A stretch of DNA of 21,846 bases from a virus. The translations under genes and the position numbers were made by a program. Below, one piece after another: positions 473-15,193 of this stretch. The notes under the pieces are model-generated. The model saw nothing but the letters and a program-made list of their open reading frames with translations, did not search any database and was not told the origin of the DNA. Numbering within the stretch: the stretch's first letter is position 1; each line of letters opens with the position of its first letter. Location: positions 1-21,846 of IMG/VR virus record IMGVR_UViG_3300025282_000294, one strand, 5' to 3'.

Positions 473-537
473 CACAATATTTCTTTTTTTATTTTATTTT
501 TCATTTTTTGCTTGACAAACTCCCATTTAAGGCTTAT
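472..537 (-). CDS. possible short leader ORF with non-AUG (ATA) start
   Basis: A strong Shine-Dalgarno AGGAGG lies at 553-548 on the minus strand. No ATG, GTG or TTG follows at a useful distance, but the frame behind it is open. An ATA at 537 is 10 nt downstream and an ATT at 546 is only 1 nt downstream. The frame encodes about 21 lysine-rich residues ending KNKIKKEIL and stops with TGA overlapping the ATG of the GIY-YIG gene (TGATG), as expected for translational coupling. Alternatively the SD is a decayed site, or it serves the GIY-YIG start through RNA folding. This is speculative. Confidence 0.2.
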   Translation of the reverse strand: MSLKWEFVKQKMKNKIKKEIL

Positions 538-540
538 ATT
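512..540 (+). promoter_or_regulatory. class A promoter, rightward, antisense to amidoligase gene
   Basis: TTGACA (512-517), exactly 17 bp, TATATT (535-540), preceded by GC as in the other copies. The flanks closely match the leftward promoter at 9920-9892 (both have TTAAG then CTTATATTGTTA). It points into the 3' end of the minus-strand amidoligase gene, and no + strand gene follows, so the transcript would be antisense. It may be a displaced copy of the early promoter. Confidence 0.55.
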
Positions 541-2059: not shown

Positions 2060-3265
2060 TTATCCTAAAACCGCTGGGAGATTAATTTGTTCACCGTTTT
2101 TACGCTTAGACTCAGCATCATAACAGTACTCACAAAGACCATATCCCTCAGTGTATTTCATATTGATTACTTCTACACCATCTCCACAAAAATCACAGCT
2201 ATACATCTTTTGCTCCACAATTTTATCTGTAGAAGATTTTATGTACCCTAAGTTAAATCCACAGGTTTTACACATATATCCACCTTGAGTATCGTATGCG
2301 AGATCGTCATAATACACTTCCATATTACAATCAGTACATGTTGCCATCCAGTCGCCATTACTGTCCATTTTAAGCTGTTTCTCTGGTTTGTCTATACATT
2401 TATAGCAGATAGAATCTACCCTGTAAGTGCTTGTATGACAAAGTTTACACCGATTAGCTGAATGACTGTAGTTATTAGAACCGCGGCTCCAACCTCCGTG
2501 ATAGTAGCCAACATTAGAATATTTATTCCAATTCTCATTAGTTTCTACTTTAGTTTCCTTTGGTTCTAGACTCTTCCAGAACACAGAAGTATCGTATTCA
2601 TATACAGTGTCTATTGGAAGAGAATATACATCTATTACAAGACCAGCAGCTTTAAGTGCTTCCTCCATAATATCAGCAGTTGATGCCCAAAACAGACATC
2701 TCGCTTTCTTCCAATATGCTATATGAAGAGGTCTACCATCTTCGTGCATAAGATTAATCGTCTGATAATCTTCATTTACCCAACTCAGTGCATAATCTCC
2801 TTCAAGTAAATCAAACACATCTTGATATTTATCTTTTTTGTTGAGCAGCCCGAATATTACCTCAGAATCCACTTGAACATTTTTACCAATTTTACTGGCT
2901 ATGTCTTTATGGTTGTATATTACACCATTATGAGCGCCAATAACACTCCCCTTAGTAAAAGGATGAGCGTTTTGTATGGTAATCGTTCCGTGGGTTGCGA
3001 ATCTCACATGCCCCATAAAGATGGTAGTATCTCTATCAACTTTTTCCAGAATCCCATCCCATTCATTACTACATACAAGGGCATCTGATGGTTGAAGAGT
3101 TCTATAGACTAACTTATCCTCCTTAGAAACAATCGCAAGTCCAGTGGAGTCTTGTCCCCTGACTACGGATTCCCAAGTGAGGTTAGTAATCACATCATCT
3201 ATTCGGCGCATCTGATCATCGCTCTGCCAGCCTTCACGCTTGGCAAATCCGAATATTCCACACAT
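2060..3265 (-). CDS. class II (Ntn) glutamine amidotransferase with three C-terminal zinc ribbons
   Basis: 401 aa. The N-terminus MCGIFGF places the catalytic nucleophile Cys at position 2, exposed after Met removal. Other GATase II signatures are RGQDSTG (36-42), GHVRFATHG (85-93; Arg binds the glutamine carboxylate), AHNGVIYN (111-118, oxyanion hole), DSE (133-135) and GDYALSW (156-162). The domain hydrolyses glutamine to glutamate and ammonia. No GlmS isomerase, PRPP-amidotransferase or asparagine-synthetase domain follows. Instead residues 273-381 contain three Cys4 pairs: C273/C276 with C287/C290, C310/C313 with C332/C335, and C357/C360 with C378/C381. The ammonia acceptor must therefore be handled by a partner, most simply one of the flanking amidoligases. 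The start ATG directly follows the stop TAA of the 604-aa gene. Confidence 0.9.
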   Translation of the reverse strand: MCGIFGFAKREGWQSDDQMRRIDDVITNLTWESVVRGQDSTGLAIVSKEDKLVYRTLQPSDALVCSNEWDGILEKVDRDTTIFMGHVRFATHGTITIQNAHPFTKGSVIGAHNGVIYNHKDIASKIGKNVQVDSEVIFGLLNKKDKYQDVFDLLEGDYALSWVNEDYQTINLMHEDGRPLHIAYWKKARCLFWASTADIMEEALKAAGLVIDVYSLPIDTVYEYDTSVFWKSLEPKETKVETNENWNKYSNVGYYHGGWSRGSNNYSHSANRCKLCHTSTYRVDSICYKCIDKPEKQLKMDSNGDWMATCTDCNMEVYYDDLAYDTQGGYMCKTCGFNLGYIKSSTDKIVEQKMYSCDFCGDGVEVINMKYTEGYGLCEYCYDAESKRKNGEQINLPAVLG

Positions 3266-5080
3266 TTACATTTCCTCTCTTTCTTCTTCTATCATATTAT
3301 CTACTAATGGGTCTGAAAGTACCTCACGCAAAGGTTCATACCTATGCGCATTCTCCCATGCTCCACTCGTTACTTCTTCAGCCCCTTTTTCAATAATATG
3401 GGCATCTGCATTTCTATCTCTCAATTCCTCTACATAAGGAATTAAATCATCCATATTCATAGCAGATAAGTAATCGCTGAAGTCATTTGACTCACTTTTA
3501 ATAAATAAATTCTTTATCTTATCATTTCTCTCTAAAAATCTTGCACCAAAATCTGACATACCTAAGCAGAAAGCCATCCATTTAGTTATAAAGTAACTAT
3601 TAAGAGTTCCGTGATGGTATCTGTATTCTATAGTGCCGTGTAAAAATCTTGAGTGTATATTTAATCCTCTATATCTTGAGGTATTATATTTTTCTGTAGT
3701 TGCCTCTGTCTTATTCATACTCTCATACCATAAAACAGACAAATCTTTTGCAGAAGAGATGTCAAGTATATCATCAGATGTAACTACATCATCCATAGGT
3801 GCTGAATATCTGTTTTTACTTCTATCTGGCGGTAACATCTCATAAATAAAAGGCTCTAAAGTCTTAACAGTCAATAATATACCTTTGAGTCCCTGTACTC
3901 CTATATAGTAGCCATCAGTATGCACATGGAGACCGCAACTATTATTAACATAAAAATTATTCTCACTTGCCCAAGAGCAAAAAGATTTAACTAATGCAAA
4001 TGCATCATCTCCTATTTCTGGAACCATAATAAATTCTCTGCCATAGTCATCATCTATCGAGCCGTCGTGGACATCACTCCATCCAGTAGGATAACCCTCC
4101 CAGCTGATATCATCATTAAATTCAGGTATGGCTTCTATCTCTACTGCTACTGGAGTTCTACTTCTATTTATACCATACAATTTATCTGGTGGTATACTTA
4201 ATTTTGCTAATATATCTCGCCTCAGCATTCTTGGAGGACTGGTTAAAATACTTGTTGCTCTGACATTATAACAAGGCTCACAATATCTTACCGAGTCATA
4301 ATTAAAACTTTTTTCGTTTGAATATAATCTGTTACAGTTATTACATTTAAATACTCGCTCATCATAACAATAACGACAAACAAGCTCCCCTTCGTGATAT
4401 CTGGATGGGGTTCGACGCAGTTTAATTGTCCCATGACACCACTCACAGTCATATTCGTGTGTTAGCTGACAAGGTTCGCAAAGACGACCTATGCCTTGAG
4501 CCTGATAAAGGTCATTTACACTAAACCATTCATTACAATCTGAACACCTGTGTAATTCATCTGGAATAAAATTTTCTCTATTTGCTACTTGTCTTAAAAA
4601 CTTACTAACCACTCTTTGAGGAAGAGAGGTTAATCTTTCTTCCGTTAATGGAGAAATACTATCTTCATAATCCTCTACGCAAATTCTCCAATATCCTCTG
4701 TTCGGTGTGGAGACTTTTAAATATGCTAATCCATCGATAGTCTCAAAAGCCATAAGCAAAGCGAGATCAGATGTTTCATCCCTCATTCTGGGATGGTTTA
4801 TTCTTATCACCTGCCTAAGTCTTAATTCAGTACTATCGGATATAAGGGCAATTTGTTGCCAGAATAAATTTCTTTTTTCAACTACAGAATATGGCTCAGT
4901 ATCAGATGACCCTGAATCTGAGTATGTAATCTCAAATTCAGCCTTATATCTATAAGGATTATCTTCTCTCGAGCTTATATTTACAATAGTTCCTAAATAA
5001 TTTCTGAAGATAATGCTATCATCTACAGAGCCTGACCTAAGAAAGAGTATTTTGTCGCCATTATTAAATTTAACTGACAA
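3266..5080 (-). CDS. large amidoligase (GS-like fold) with N-terminal domain and zinc ribbons, paralog 1
   Basis: 604 aa, starting at TTG 5080 with SD AGGAG five nt upstream. Residues 1-130 are an uncharacterised beta-rich region (possibly SH3-like; guess). Three Cys4 zinc ribbons follow: C179/C182 with C201/C204, C212/C215 with C235/C238, and C246/C249 with C267/C270. The amidoligase_2 domain occupies about 305-510: VAVEIE (311-316), HDGS (338-341), GREFIMVPE (347-355), CGLHVHTDG (382-390), and RYRGLNIHSRF then TIEYRYHHGT (about 469-492). These motifs line up one by one with the 385-aa paralog. The C-terminal 90 residues are acidic and end in EEEREEM. The 44-aa ORF upstream overlaps its start by 11 nt. 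The family is expected to ligate an amine to a carboxylate using ATP; the substrate is unknown. Confidence 0.85.
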   Translation of the reverse strand: MSVKFNNGDKILFLRSGSVDDSIIFRNYLGTIVNISSREDNPYRYKAEFEITYSDSGSSDTEPYSVVEKRNLFWQQIALISDSTELRLRQVIRINHPRMRDETSDLALLMAFETIDGLAYLKVSTPNRGYWRICVEDYEDSISPLTEERLTSLPQRVVSKFLRQVANRENFIPDELHRCSDCNEWFSVNDLYQAQGIGRLCEPCQLTHEYDCEWCHGTIKLRRTPSRYHEGELVCRYCYDERVFKCNNCNRLYSNEKSFNYDSVRYCEPCYNVRATSILTSPPRMLRRDILAKLSIPPDKLYGINRSRTPVAVEIEAIPEFNDDISWEGYPTGWSDVHDGSIDDDYGREFIMVPEIGDDAFALVKSFCSWASENNFYVNNSCGLHVHTDGYYIGVQGLKGILLTVKTLEPFIYEMLPPDRSKNRYSAPMDDVVTSDDILDISSAKDLSVLWYESMNKTEATTEKYNTSRYRGLNIHSRFLHGTIEYRYHHGTLNSYFITKWMAFCLGMSDFGARFLERNDKIKNLFIKSESNDFSDYLSAMNMDDLIPYVEELRDRNADAHIIEKGAEEVTSGAWENAHRYEPLREVLSDPLVDNMIEEEREEM

Positions 5081-5229: not shown

Positions 5230-5259
5230 AAAATACGACCAAAAAATCATAAAAGTCAA
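5230..5259 (-). promoter_or_regulatory. class B promoter candidate for the amidoligase operon
   Basis: On the minus strand, TTGACT (5259-5254) is followed by TATTTT (5235-5230) at 18 bp. The upstream context AAAAAAAGACTTGACT is shared with the promoter at 8786. The predicted start near 5223 lies about 20 nt before the TTG of the 44-aa ORF. The -10 element is weak. Confidence 0.45.
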
Positions 5260-9204: not shown

Positions 9205-9531
9205 TTATTCTCCAATTTTATAATTATAAATAGTTTCAAATTCTTCAGTAGGTAACATTCTTATTGCATCCCAAGTTAACTTTGTGCATACTTTTGCGCA
9301 AATCTGGCATCCAATGCATTCATCAAATCTTATTTGTACGGGTGGAATCGGTATATTATATTTATCCATTGGTACTGTTTCAATACAGTCAACTGGACAA
9401 AACGGGATACATACTTGACAACCTGTGCATCCATCTTCATCTACTACTGCCATGAGTCTAGGTTTCCTTTTTTTATATCCTATTTTTTCTGCTGGATCTG
9501 GAACTGTTTTATAATGATCGATTGATTTCAT
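9205..9531 (-). CDS. 2x[4Fe-4S] ferredoxin
   Basis: 108 aa. Two iron-sulfur motifs are clear: CTGCQVCIPFCPVDC (CxxCxxCxxxCP) and CIGCQICAKVC (CxxCxxCxxxC). Together they bind two [4Fe-4S] clusters in a bacterial-type ferredoxin, a small low-potential electron carrier. The last Cys of the second motif is followed by Thr instead of the common Pro. N- and C-terminal extensions of about 25 residues flank the core (IDHYKTVPDPAEKIGYKKRK; PTEEFETIYNYKIGE). The ATG overlaps the stop of the 85-aa gene (TAATG). It is the second gene from the leftward promoter. The redox partner is unknown; no obvious oxidoreductase is in the window. Confidence 0.92.
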   Translation of the reverse strand: MKSIDHYKTVPDPAEKIGYKKRKPRLMAVVDEDGCTGCQVCIPFCPVDCIETVPMDKYNIPIPPVQIRFDECIGCQICAKVCTKLTWDAIRMLPTEEFETIYNYKIGE

Positions 9532-9891: not shown

Positions 9892-9920
9892 AATATAAGG
9901 CTTAAAGTACCTTTTGTCAA
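9892..9920 (-). promoter_or_regulatory. class A promoter, leftward (ferredoxin operon)
   Basis: Minus strand TTGACA (9920-9915), 17 bp, TATATT (9897-9892), with GC before the -35 box. It forms a divergent pair with the rightward promoter at 9956; the -35 boxes are only 35 bp apart. Confidence 0.8.
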
Positions 9921-9955: not shown

Positions 9956-9984
9956 TTGACTTATATTGTATATTACCTTATATT
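9956..9984 (+). promoter_or_regulatory. class A promoter, rightward (start of right arm)
   Basis: TTGACT (9956-9961), 17 bp, TATATT (9979-9984). The expected start is at about 9991, 2-3 nt before the GTG of the first rightward gene, so the mRNA would be leaderless or nearly so. Confidence 0.78.
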
Positions 9985-12031: not shown

Positions 12032-12060
12032 TTGACAAAGGTATACTTAAGGGTTATATT
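12032..12060 (+). promoter_or_regulatory. class A promoter upstream of terminase genes
   Basis: TTGACA (12032-12037), 17 bp, TATATT (12055-12060). It begins 4 nt after the exonuclease stop. The predicted start falls at about 12067, on or next to the ATG at 12068, implying a leaderless mRNA for the packaging genes. Confidence 0.78.
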
Positions 12061-12067
12061 ATAATAT

Positions 12068-12832
12068 ATGCTTGTTCGTAAAATAAAAAATGTCGAACAC
12101 AGGGTATATGATGATGAGAATGAGTTTCGCCAATACTGTCCTGATGAAAATATAATACTGAATTGGAGGGATGGCACCAAAGGTAGCTGGGTTAAGACTG
12201 ATGATGATAAAATATGCCAAGTCCTCAAAAGGGGTAAGCTAAAAATCAGTCAGTCTAAGGGAGTGTATAATTATTACGTCAGGACAGCTATTGGCTCTTT
12301 TGTTTGCAGAGATACTATGAAGATGGAAGGTGGTCTTAGAAAGAATATGTATACTTTCGGAGATAGTGATGTTACATTGTATCAACAGAAGAAACATAGG
12401 AAGAAGGCTACTAGGCGTGAATTCTTGTTTGCTAAGTTCGTTGCGCAAGGTGATGGTATCGCAGAGGCATTTATAAAAGCCTTTCCTACCAATAATGAAG
12501 AATATGCAGATTATCAAGGGAAAATACTATTAAGCACGGAAAGGATCAAAAACTTGATAAGAGAAGAAGTTGACAAAGTCCTACATGAGGCTGAGATTAC
12601 GCCTCTGTATTTGCTTGAACAAATGAAAAAAATTGTTGATGCAAAGAAATCACAGGATAAAGATAAGATTCAGGCTATTAAGGCTCTTATGCAAATTAGC
12701 GGAATGATGGATACGGAGAAGAGAACTGAATCATTAACCCTATTTCAAGGTTTTACAAAGGAGCAATTAGATGCTATCCAAGGTGGAGATTCGAAAAAGC
12801 TCATTGAAGCTTCGAGAGAAGTTGAAAAATAA
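12068..12832 (+). CDS. terS: terminase small subunit with N-terminal extension
   Basis: 254 aa. The C-terminal two thirds resemble a phage small terminase: RREFLFAKFVAQGDGIAEAF is the HTH-like DNA-recognition segment (about 117-136), then helices KNLIREEVDKVLHEAEITPL and a dimerising/coiled region LEQMKKIVDAKKSQDKDKI. The first 85 residues (CPDENIILNWRDGTKGSWVK, KRGKLKISQSKGVYNYYVR) form an extra beta-rich domain not usual for short TerS. The protein binds the packaging site and regulates TerL. No SD precedes ATG 12068; the promoter position predicts a leaderless message. The TerS call rests on pattern plus position two genes before TerL. Confidence 0.78.
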   Translation: MLVRKIKNVEHRVYDDENEFRQYCPDENIILNWRDGTKGSWVKTDDDKICQVLKRGKLKISQSKGVYNYYVRTAIGSFVCRDTMKMEGGLRKNMYTFGDSDVTLYQQKKHRKKATRREFLFAKFVAQGDGIAEAFIKAFPTNNEEYADYQGKILLSTERIKNLIREEVDKVLHEAEITPLYLLEQMKKIVDAKKSQDKDKIQAIKALMQISGMMDTEKRTESLTLFQGFTKEQLDAIQGGDSKKLIEASREVEK

Positions 12833-12995
12833 GAAATGCATAGTTTGTGGATTTCCTATGAGGGAATACGCATCTATATGGTACAATCTAACGGAAGATT
12901 ATTTTTCCATAGAGTGTTGTGAATGCTTTTCGTCGTACGATGAGGACTTCGAAATGCGAATGCCTGGAATAATATTTAATTGTGGAGAAGCATAA
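12822..12995 (+). CDS. small zinc-ribbon-like protein, about 57 aa
   Basis: The frame is open from 12771, but a TTG at 12822 overlapping the TerS stop gives a sensible start: KNKKCIVCGFPMREYASIWY, then EDYFSIECCECFSSYDEDFE. The pair CIVC and CCEC fits a compact Cys4 zinc site. Function is unknown. The true start (TTG 12822 or a position further upstream) is uncertain. It lies within the packaging cluster. Confidence 0.6.
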   Translation: MKNKKCIVCGFPMREYASIWYNLTEDYFSIECCECFSSYDEDFEMRMPGIIFNCGEA

Positions 12996-13241
12996 ATGAA
13001 AACTGTTAAATTTGATCTAGTACTAAAAGTACATAATGATTTAAAAGAAGATGAATTAAAAAGTTCTTTAGAATATTATATGATAAATGATAATGCTGTT
13101 AGGGGACTGGTTTCTCAGGTTATTGGAGAAATTGATGCTCCAGAAAATTTTTCTATAATTTCAATGGAAATAAAGGAAAAAAGAAAGGTAAAGAAGAATG
13201 CCGTACAAAACAATGGGAAAAACGGTATACATCAAAAATGA
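12996..13241 (+). CDS. hypothetical protein, 81 aa
   Basis: Not recognised. It follows directly on the previous stop, with SD GGAGAAG. The N-terminal MKTVKFDLVLKVHNDLKEDE and middle DAPENFSIISMEIKEKRK suggest a small alpha/beta fold; the C-terminus is basic. Its stop overlaps the start of the GGCT gene (ATGA). Confidence 0.72.
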   Translation: MKTVKFDLVLKVHNDLKEDELKSSLEYYMINDNAVRGLVSQVIGEIDAPENFSIISMEIKEKRKVKKNAVQNNGKNGIHQK

Positions 13242-13269
13242 AGCTTGCGGTATACGGAACTCTTCGTAA
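13198..13269 (+). pseudogene. possible remnant of an MPYK-type small phage protein, 23 codons
   Basis: ATG 13198 in a frame of its own encodes MPYKTMGKTVYIKN and then nine unrelated residues to TAA 13269. The start resembles the beginning of small basic phage proteins of the form MPYKxxGKxVYxK-GKW, recalled from memory. The resemblance ends about where the GGCT gene begins (13238), as if the GGCT gene had cut into it. It is weakly supported and could be chance. Confidence 0.22.
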
Positions 13270-13588
13270 TGGAAGTGAGGATACTGGAAGAATAGAAAAT
13301 ACTTCTCTTGTCTATCCTGGGCATCAAAGATTTCCTGCTGTAATACAGGATTATCAAGGCAAGGGTACTGTGGTGGAAGTTCACGATGTAACTAGCGAAG
13401 AGATGGCTCAGTATGATTTGTATGAAGGTCTTGCCATCGGTCTTTACGATAGGGTTAAAGTTAAAGTAAATATGGATAAAGGCGAAGAAGTGGAAGCTTG
13501 GGTATATGTTGCTGGCCCGCGCCTTCTTAAATTAGTAGATGTTTTTGAGGAGATTCCAAATGGAGACTGGAACAATAGAAAACTTTAA
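13238..13588 (+). CDS. gamma-glutamylcyclotransferase-like (AIG2/GGCT) protein
   Basis: 116 aa. The substrate-binding loop VYGTLRNG is at 5-12, and the catalytic Glu is likely E63 in YDLYEGLAIGLYDR, followed by the YxR-V-V strand typical of the fold. GGCT-family enzymes release 5-oxoproline from gamma-glutamyl amides or act on related amide-linked conjugates. The start overlaps the previous stop (ATGA), and its 3' end overlaps the TerL start by 29 nt. It is a metabolic-type enzyme embedded between small and large terminase genes, and its chemistry complements the two amidoligases on the left arm. Family call firm; substrate unknown. Confidence 0.86.
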   Translation: MKLAVYGTLRNGSEDTGRIENTSLVYPGHQRFPAVIQDYQGKGTVVEVHDVTSEEMAQYDLYEGLAIGLYDRVKVKVNMDKGEEVEAWVYVAGPRLLKLVDVFEEIPNGDWNNRKL

Positions 13589-15146
13589 TATAATTTCGAA
13601 TGACTTGGATGAGAAAGAAAGAGTCCTTAATATGGTATCAAAGGACTTGGTTGCTTTTGGGCAGCTTTTTCTTCCAGATGATTTTATGAAATCAAAACCA
13701 GCTCTGTTTCATCATAATGTAGGCGAGTTTCTTTTAGATAATACTATAAGAAGGCTTTGTGTTATATTACCGCGTGGTCATACCAAATCCACTATGGCAA
13801 AAGCAGCTTTGCTCCATAGGATATATTTCAATCCTAAAGGAAAGAATGAATTTGCGGCTTGGGTATCTGAAGAACAGACACAGGCGATAGACCATTTAAA
13901 ATACATTAAAACACATATAGAGTTAAATCCTGCCTTGCATTATTACTTTGGTGATATAGCTGGAAGTAAATGGACGGAAAAAGAAATCACCACATCTAAG
14001 GGTGACAGAATTATAGCAAAAGGAACTAGTCAAAGACTTCGTGGGAGATCGGAACTCGGCCTTCGTTATACAAAAATTATTCTTGATGACTTTGAATCTG
14101 AGTTAAATACAAAAACTCCAGAAAGAAGACGTGAAGTTAAAGAATGGCTTATGTCAACGGTATATCCAGCATTGGAAGAGTCAAAAGGTAATGAAGGTGC
14201 AATATGGCTTGTAGGTACGATCGTCCATTATGACTCTGCTTTGCAGGCTATATACGATGGATATTTAGAGGCTAAAAAAAATAAAGAAGATTATACTTGG
14301 CAGATTATATTTCATCGTGCGCTTGAGGATGGTAAACCGCTTTGGCCTTCTTATTTTCCAAAAGAAAAGATTGCAAGTATAAGAAAAGATTATGAGAACG
14401 TAGGGCAACTTCACAAGTTTGCACAGGAATATATGAATGATGCTCGCGATCTTGAAACAGCTAAATTTAAAATAGACAAGATAAATTATTATGATGGTGA
14501 ATTTAAAGCAAAAAATAATCAAGCGTATATAGTTACTAAGAAAGATGCTATTCCAGTTAATGTTTATATGGGTGTTGACTTGGCTTATGAATCTTCTGCT
14601 AAACATGATTATCAAGTAATAGTGGTAGCTGGAATTGATAGCGATAAGAATGTTTATGTGATTGATATATTTCACGAACATATTCCTCTTTATGATATGC
14701 CTAGAAAGATATTTCAATATGCTAAAGAATACCAGCCGATGCGAAGAGCAAATGTGGAACATGTAGGTGCTCAAGGTATTATAAAAGATGCTGTTAATGC
14801 TCTATCGGGAAAAGATAGAAAGATGGCTCCTGGTATTGCTCGTGGTGTTAGACCGCCTACTGGAATTAAAAAAGAAGATCGGCTTGAATCATTGCTTTGT
14901 CCTCTTGTAAATCGTGGCAAGTTTTTTATGAAAAAGCAACATAATGAAATAGTGGATGAAATGTTTCATTTTCCTAAAGGAAAGAACGATGACTTGCTTG
15001 ACGGCATTTGGTATTCGATTATAAATGCCAGAGCTCCATTGAGCAGAAAGTTTGATGCTGAGAATTTTGAAGAGACAGTAGATCAAAAAAAGGAGTTTTT
15101 AGCAAGAAAAATAGTGAGAAACTGGATTACTGGGCAAAGAATGTGA
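13560..15146 (+). CDS. terL: terminase large subunit (ATPase-nuclease)
   Basis: 528 aa from ATG 13560, which has SD GAGGAG seven nt upstream. A Walker A variant PRGHTKST (71-78) and Walker B IILDDFE (173-179) form the packaging ATPase. The C-terminal RNase-H-like nuclease shows MGVDLAYE (D340), RANVEHVGAQ (E400) and GKNDDLLDGI (D477/D478/D481). The protein forms the packaging motor at the portal and cuts concatemers. It overlaps the GGCT gene. The length and domain order are normal for the family. Confidence 0.95.
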   Translation: METGTIENFNIISNDLDEKERVLNMVSKDLVAFGQLFLPDDFMKSKPALFHHNVGEFLLDNTIRRLCVILPRGHTKSTMAKAALLHRIYFNPKGKNEFAAWVSEEQTQAIDHLKYIKTHIELNPALHYYFGDIAGSKWTEKEITTSKGDRIIAKGTSQRLRGRSELGLRYTKIILDDFESELNTKTPERRREVKEWLMSTVYPALEESKGNEGAIWLVGTIVHYDSALQAIYDGYLEAKKNKEDYTWQIIFHRALEDGKPLWPSYFPKEKIASIRKDYENVGQLHKFAQEYMNDARDLETAKFKIDKINYYDGEFKAKNNQAYIVTKKDAIPVNVYMGVDLAYESSAKHDYQVIVVAGIDSDKNVYVIDIFHEHIPLYDMPRKIFQYAKEYQPMRRANVEHVGAQGIIKDAVNALSGKDRKMAPGIARGVRPPTGIKKEDRLESLLCPLVNRGKFFMKKQHNEIVDEMFHFPKGKNDDLLDGIWYSIINARAPLSRKFDAENFEETVDQKKEFLARKIVRNWITGQRM

Positions 15147-15164: not shown

Positions 15165-15193
15165 TTGACATTGTACCCTTTTATGCTTATATT
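15165..15193 (+). promoter_or_regulatory. class A promoter upstream of portal
   Basis: TTGACA (15165-15170), 17 bp, TATATT (15188-15193). The expected start near 15200 leaves a leader of about 30 nt that contains the SD AGGAG (15218-15222). It starts 19 nt after the TerL stop and would drive the structural genes. Confidence 0.8.

Follow-up and report, generated by a model that had tools for sequence, protein, structure and literature searches.

A gamma-glutamyl cyclotransferase gene within the terminase unit of marine phages which carry an amidoligase cassette on the opposite strand

A 'peptidoglycan modification cassette', which comprises an Amidoligase_2 protein, a class II glutamine amidotransferase (GAT) and a gamma-glutamyl cyclotransferase (GGCT) in each phage and lies on an arm also carrying replication genes, has been described for RIO-1/PSA-HP1, phiEco32 and LUZ24-like phages (PMC5498523, PMC11945000). 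For the RIO-1-like phages the GGCT and the GAT of the cassette were listed as peptidoglycan degradation genes, and modification of the host cell wall by the cassette was put forward as a hypothesis (PMC5498523); the same association of the three genes was noted in Pseudomonas phage U17 (PMC11945000). Pairs of an amidoligase with a nearby GGCT occur in firmicute prophages and phages, among them Terrisporobacter TPDSL_ph1 (PMC11253131) and C. clostridioforme (PMC11318856), both of which papers credit the idea to Iyer et al. 2009, as well as Geobacillus GR1 and Blautia NatCom_2932. These four papers already cover the joint occurrence of amidoligase, GAT and GGCT in phages as well as the suggested role at the cell surface. 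Cassettes of this kind are widespread among phages; the literature surveyed reports neither a demonstrated substrate of such a cassette nor a substrate or activity of a phage GGCT.

The locus described here lies in a complete viral contig record of 21,846 bases, in the following called the window, which probably represents about half a genome; records related to it reach 46–48 kb. No close cultured relative was found by the terminase large subunit (TerL, best matches about 25% identity) or by the portal protein (20–25%), and MEP401, an amidoligase/GATase phage among the TerL matches, has only small unnamed reading frames before TerL. Assignment of a host was attempted, the closest matches in genome_contigs (L158-L160) being short contigs binned in unrelated MAGs, and no host is claimed.

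The GGCT is encoded on the plus strand by a reading frame of 116 amino acids (13238–13588), an AIG2-like cyclotransferase of the GGCT/GGACT type. It matches PF06094 (Pfam GGACT) with an E-value of 1.1e-13 and 52.3 bits, above the family cut-off of 22.8 bits, and phrog_2520 (gamma-glutamyl cyclotransferase) with 4.3e-13. A YGSL-type loop together with a glutamate is the catalytic signature of GGCT-fold enzymes, whose reaction releases 5-oxoproline (PMC7022552, PMC12756093). The corresponding YGTLR loop at residues 6–10 and the general base Glu63 (in YDLYEG), pointed out in the earlier note, were checked in the relatives and are kept throughout: A4-R10 (AVYGTLR), Y62-E63-G64, and Y70 and R72 of the Tyr70-x-Arg72 motif are invariant in 66 of 66 non-redundant relatives, and an alignment shows the active-site residues to be common to other phage and cellular GGCTs. 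The median pairwise dN/dS is 0.16 (243 pairs, codons outside the TerL overlap), and this low value, together with a gene order shared by more than 80 contigs, argues that the reading frame has not arisen by chance.

Structure prediction yielded the GGCT fold, a beta-barrel, with a pLDDT of 88 and a pTM of 0.82. When the model was used for a fold search, YkqA (2qik) was the best match with a Z of 13.6, followed by mouse and human GGACT (1vkb and 3jub) with Z about 13. These GGACT and YkqA-type proteins have the fold, the YGTL loop and the catalytic glutamate in common with the phage protein; they differ from it in being longer and are 22–26% identical. It was this fold search that revealed the kinship, phmmer against PDB sequences having found no significant relative; a search of plasmids with the GGCT gave no match. 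By family, fold, intact active site and selection the protein is an active-looking enzyme. Its fold also bears on a reading in which the GGCT would act upstream of the cassette, cleaving host gamma-glutamyl compounds such as glutathione and gamma-glutamyl peptides and thereby supplying amines or glutamate, with no modification being undone. Glutathione and gamma-glutamyl amino acids do serve as substrates of GGCT-fold enzymes (PMC12756093), and the listing of GGCT and GAT among degradation genes mentioned above (PMC5498523) agrees with such a task. Against it stands the greater distance of the model from ChaC (Z 6 to 9, as compared to 13 for GGACT and YkqA), to be read with the qualification that similarity of a predicted fold would not by itself fix the substrate, and the reading is regarded as possible but unlikely.

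The gene lies between the two terminase genes and overlaps TerL, as the earlier note had claimed, with the refinement that two small conserved reading frames stand between the terminase small subunit (TerS) and the GGCT. On the plus strand TerS (12068–12832; phrog_51 1.8e-5, weak PF03592) is followed by a frame of 74 amino acids with zinc-ribbon-like CxxC pairs (12771–12995; present in relatives, no family match), a frame of 81 amino acids (12996–13241; in most relatives) which overlaps the beginning of the GGCT by 4 bases (ATGA), the GGCT itself, and TerL (13539–15146; phrog_38 1.3e-76). The overlap of GGCT and TerL amounts to 50 bases if TerL starts at 13539 and to 29 if it starts at 13560. 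TerL and GGCT searches recovered the order from TerS through GGCT to TerL in more than 80 related contigs, and the position of the GGCT has been maintained over about 40% protein divergence. Among the phages examined outside this marine clade no other lineage with a GGCT between TerS and TerL was found. So fixed a location and the overlap with TerL would be explained if the GGCT protein acted in the assembly or activity of the terminase; as the catalytic residues are fully kept and the gene stands away from the terminase in other phages, this is hardly credible. Sharing a unit with the terminase genes could also point to another task of the GGCT, which counts against a link to the amidoligase pathway.

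The amidoligase cassette occupies the minus strand between 587 and 5080, with the Amidoligase_2 and class II GAT genes adjacent. It consists of AL1, an Amidoligase_2 protein with a Cys-rich N-terminal part (587–1744; PF12224 8.1e-21, phrog_2443), a frame of 99 amino acids conserved with AL1 and GAT and without a credible family (1753–2052), the GAT with its N-terminal cysteine and a Cys-rich C-terminal part (2060–3265; PF13522 1.6e-15, phrog_4736 1.7e-31) and, on the other side of the GAT, a second Amidoligase_2 protein, AL2 (3266–5080; PF12224 2.4e-21), found in the nearer relatives of the window and absent from the deeper ones. The GGCT is encoded on the other strand at a distance of about 8 kb, in agreement with the proposed split of the system over two opposite arms, with PF12224 in AL1 and AL2 on the minus strand and the GGCT on the plus strand. 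The window clade thus resembles the RIO-1, phiEco32 and LUZ24-like cassettes in its three kinds of protein and in an arm with replication genes, since in two relatives the cassette arm also carries replication and recombination genes (DnaB helicase, Sak, methylases). It differs from them in that its GGCT lies between TerS and TerL, on the strand facing away from the cassette, and in that AL2 is present in only part of the clade; a further difference may concern the ATP-grasp and COOH-NH2 ligase partners, of which none was recognised in the scanned proteins of the window, which is a fragment, or in the ten genes beyond AL1 in two relatives. The firmicute pairs are like the window phage in having an amidoligase with a nearby GGCT and unlike it in that both genes share a strand, a GAT is not annotated in the regions covered, and the GGCT does not lie between TerS and TerL. 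As a separate observation, AL1, AL2, GAT and the 74-amino-acid frame before the GGCT all have Cys-rich segments of the CxxC type which look zinc-binding, and a shared scaffold or target is conceivable; a ferredoxin-like frame with two CxxCxxCxxxC motifs (9205–9531, minus strand) is present in only one of the fetched relatives (L003).

Thirty long records of the clade were searched over their whole length, and PF12224 was found in 20 and PF06094 in 28 of them. The ten records lacking an amidoligase extend no more than about 9.2 kb upstream of the GGCT and so stop short of the full cassette, two of them holding an amidoligase fragment at the edge, and the two lacking a GGCT end before TerS or at AL2. 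A GGCT at this locus in many phages devoid of amidoligases would have spoken against the link drawn in the earlier note; what was found is that all 20 relatives reaching both places (including G031 and G069) have both genes, as does the window. There is one PF12224 match per contig in the deeper relatives and two in those nearer to the window, so AL1, the 99-amino-acid frame, GAT and GGCT form the constant set and AL2 is variable. One record of 80,282 bases (G019; L102, L176, L243, L244) has two copies each of GGCT and amidoligase, at a separation of about 44 kb; it is probably a contig in which two genome units, or else two related phages, have been joined.

The association extends to unrelated phages. 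Among 17 phage records which had been picked for having a GGCT (Kuravirus-type, Grimontviridae, Zobellviridae, LUZ24-type, Rhizobium, Alcaligenes, Planctomycetes and other phages), 16 contained PF12224. As a control, 42 random viral contigs of at least 20 kb were chosen by an arbitrary 14-mer, and none of the 42 contained either PF06094 or PF12224. The resulting Fisher p of 1.5e-13 (16/17 versus 0/42) is uncorrected for relatedness; with lineages that are not independent and a control drawn from another collection, it is a rough figure only. The seventeenth record, MW202828, was considered as a counter-example and set aside: it encodes a single protein (L139:3503-4720) in which a class II GAT part at the N-terminus (MCVIIIK...) is fused to a GGCT domain and a tail rich in Cys, next to a protein of 574 amino acids which has no family match and contains GFEVE, CGGHITIG (GGHITIG) and EFRLP (EFR) stretches resembling the amidoligases of the window, and which from these motifs appears to be amidoligase-like. 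In the reverse direction, phages selected for an amidoligase contained a GGCT in five of seven cases. Searching with a distant GAT yielded 36 long contigs from outside the clade (L184-L235, records G032-G067), many of them longer than 40 kb; PF12224 was present in 32 of the 36 and PF06094 in none, with the proviso that the PF06094 profile could miss a very divergent GGCT. A GGCT therefore nearly always implies an amidoligase and not the reverse, and since many amidoligase/GAT phages are without a GGCT, the system can do without a removing arm. The link between GGCT and amidoligases proposed in the earlier note thus stands as a co-occurrence across related and unrelated phages, with the restrictions that the GGCT is an optional addition and that the link had already been described by others.

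These counts also bear on whether the GGCT is a broad, housekeeping-type cyclotransferase which is unrelated to the amidoligases and located here by chance. Cells often carry PF06094, as 9 of 14 control genomes did, and a GGCT is optional for amidoligase phages, as would fit a free-standing metabolic gene; the near-constant company of an amidoligase and the fusion of one phage GGCT to a GAT disfavour this explanation, which is quite improbable.

In most of the phages examined the GGCT is encoded in or next to the ligase operon. It lies on the same strand and within a few genes of the ligase or GAT in Bas88, BUCT695, Zobellviridae, Ab22, Geobacillus GR1 and Arthrobacter Shrooms, and is co-directional at a distance of 1 to 6 kb from the ligase genes in C75C1, Bacillus 031MP003 and Alcaligenes QDWS535. 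In the Blautia phage NatCom_2932 the amidoligase and the GGCT are located shortly before TerS. The window departs from this usual arrangement. A derivation of the marine GGCT from cassette GGCTs was tried with a tree, in which the marine GGCTs formed a clade of their own with no supported grouping with the cassette GGCTs; the deep forks were not resolved and the branches were long. This lack of grouping and the optional nature of the GGCT (0 of the 36 GAT contigs) count against a link to the pathway.

Another finding was a set of promoter motifs. The sigma70-type motif TTGACW-N17-TATATT occurs five times, as compared to 0.02 expected. On the minus strand it heads the arm with the amidoligase cassette (TTGACA, 9892–9920); on the plus strand it heads the opposite arm (TTGACT, 9956–9984), precedes TerS (TTGACA, 12032–12060) and, past the TerL stop, precedes the portal gene (TTGACA, 15165–15193). 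A weaker promoter-like site, TTGACT-N18-TATTTT (5230–5259, minus strand), is located just upstream of AL2 and reads TATATT in the relative L008. Such a motif was present before TerS in 49 of 49 and before the portal in 54 of 54 distinct relatives, against a background of 4.7% of random stretches, and in the listed relatives the hexamers were fixed and the spacers drifted. With motifs before TerS and before the portal, the stretch from TerS to TerL looks like one short transcription unit with a promoter motif of its own. The fifth copy (512–540, plus strand) is situated just past the AL1 stop codon and points into AL1 in antisense orientation. Similar sites occur at this place in relatives L066, L079, L095, L102, L103, L105, L117/L118 and L121, and an antisense transcript over the amidoligase cassette is possible.

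According to the earlier note, the two arms would allow an early step of addition and a later step of removal, the amidoligases acting early from one arm and the GGCT, expressed with the packaging genes, later taking off a gamma-glutamyl modification. The conserved place of the GGCT in the short terminase unit, opposite to an arm which in two relatives also holds DnaB helicase, Sak and methylases, would suit such a switch. The same sigma70-type motif, however, heads both the cassette arm and the TerS-GGCT-TerL unit, so the proposed timing was not borne out; as judged from the motifs, a separate late class for the GGCT would gain no support, other forms of control being possible. Nor does a separation of the genes appear to be a general requirement, since in most phages examined the GGCT is co-directional with the ligases and close to them. 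Many ligase or GAT phages do without a GGCT altogether. A timed switch is accordingly judged improbable.

The favoured reading is that the GGCT is probably an active gamma-glutamyl(amine) cyclotransferase which serves the amidoligase/glutamine amidotransferase pathway of the phage. The amidoligases would join a carboxylate to an amine at the expense of ATP, and the GAT would act on glutamine. In the GGCT the free alpha-amine of a gamma-glutamyl group would attack its own gamma-carbonyl with the help of Glu63, yielding 5-oxoproline and a free amine, by which the enzyme would process gamma-glutamyl amides produced in or fed into the amidoligase pathway, be it for trimming, de-protection or recycling. 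In the marine clade this would be carried out from a gene outside the cassette, within the short TerS-TerL transcription unit. The biological end may be, as proposed in the literature, a change of the cell surface directed against superinfection. In butirosin biosynthesis a ligase attaches a gamma-glutamyl group and the GGCT-fold enzyme BtrG takes it off again; this case differs from that of the phage in belonging to a bacterial biosynthetic pathway and in involving an ATP-grasp ligase. Within the phage pathway the GGCT may undo the ligase product, edit it or furnish precursors; that it undoes an amidoligase product is chemically plausible. Since the reaction requires a free alpha-amine, the usual D-Glu bond in an intact stem peptide, with its acylated amine, would presumably resist the enzyme, and a suitable substrate would be a gamma-Glu attached to the amine of a side chain. 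There is also a slim chance that in the marine clade the GGCT moved into the terminase unit and thereby tied reversal of a gamma-glutamyl modification made by the amidoligases to DNA packaging, the modification being taken off before the progeny leave.

Within the range of the searches, the split layout, in which the GGCT belongs to a TerS-TerL unit, is new, and so are the conservation of this layout, the promoter map, the fusion of GAT and GGCT, and the asymmetry of co-occurrence. By this asymmetry the GGCT is an optional addition to the amidoligase cassettes. As the marine clade separates the cyclotransferase from the ligases, it offers a natural setting in which either could be deleted or expressed without the other.
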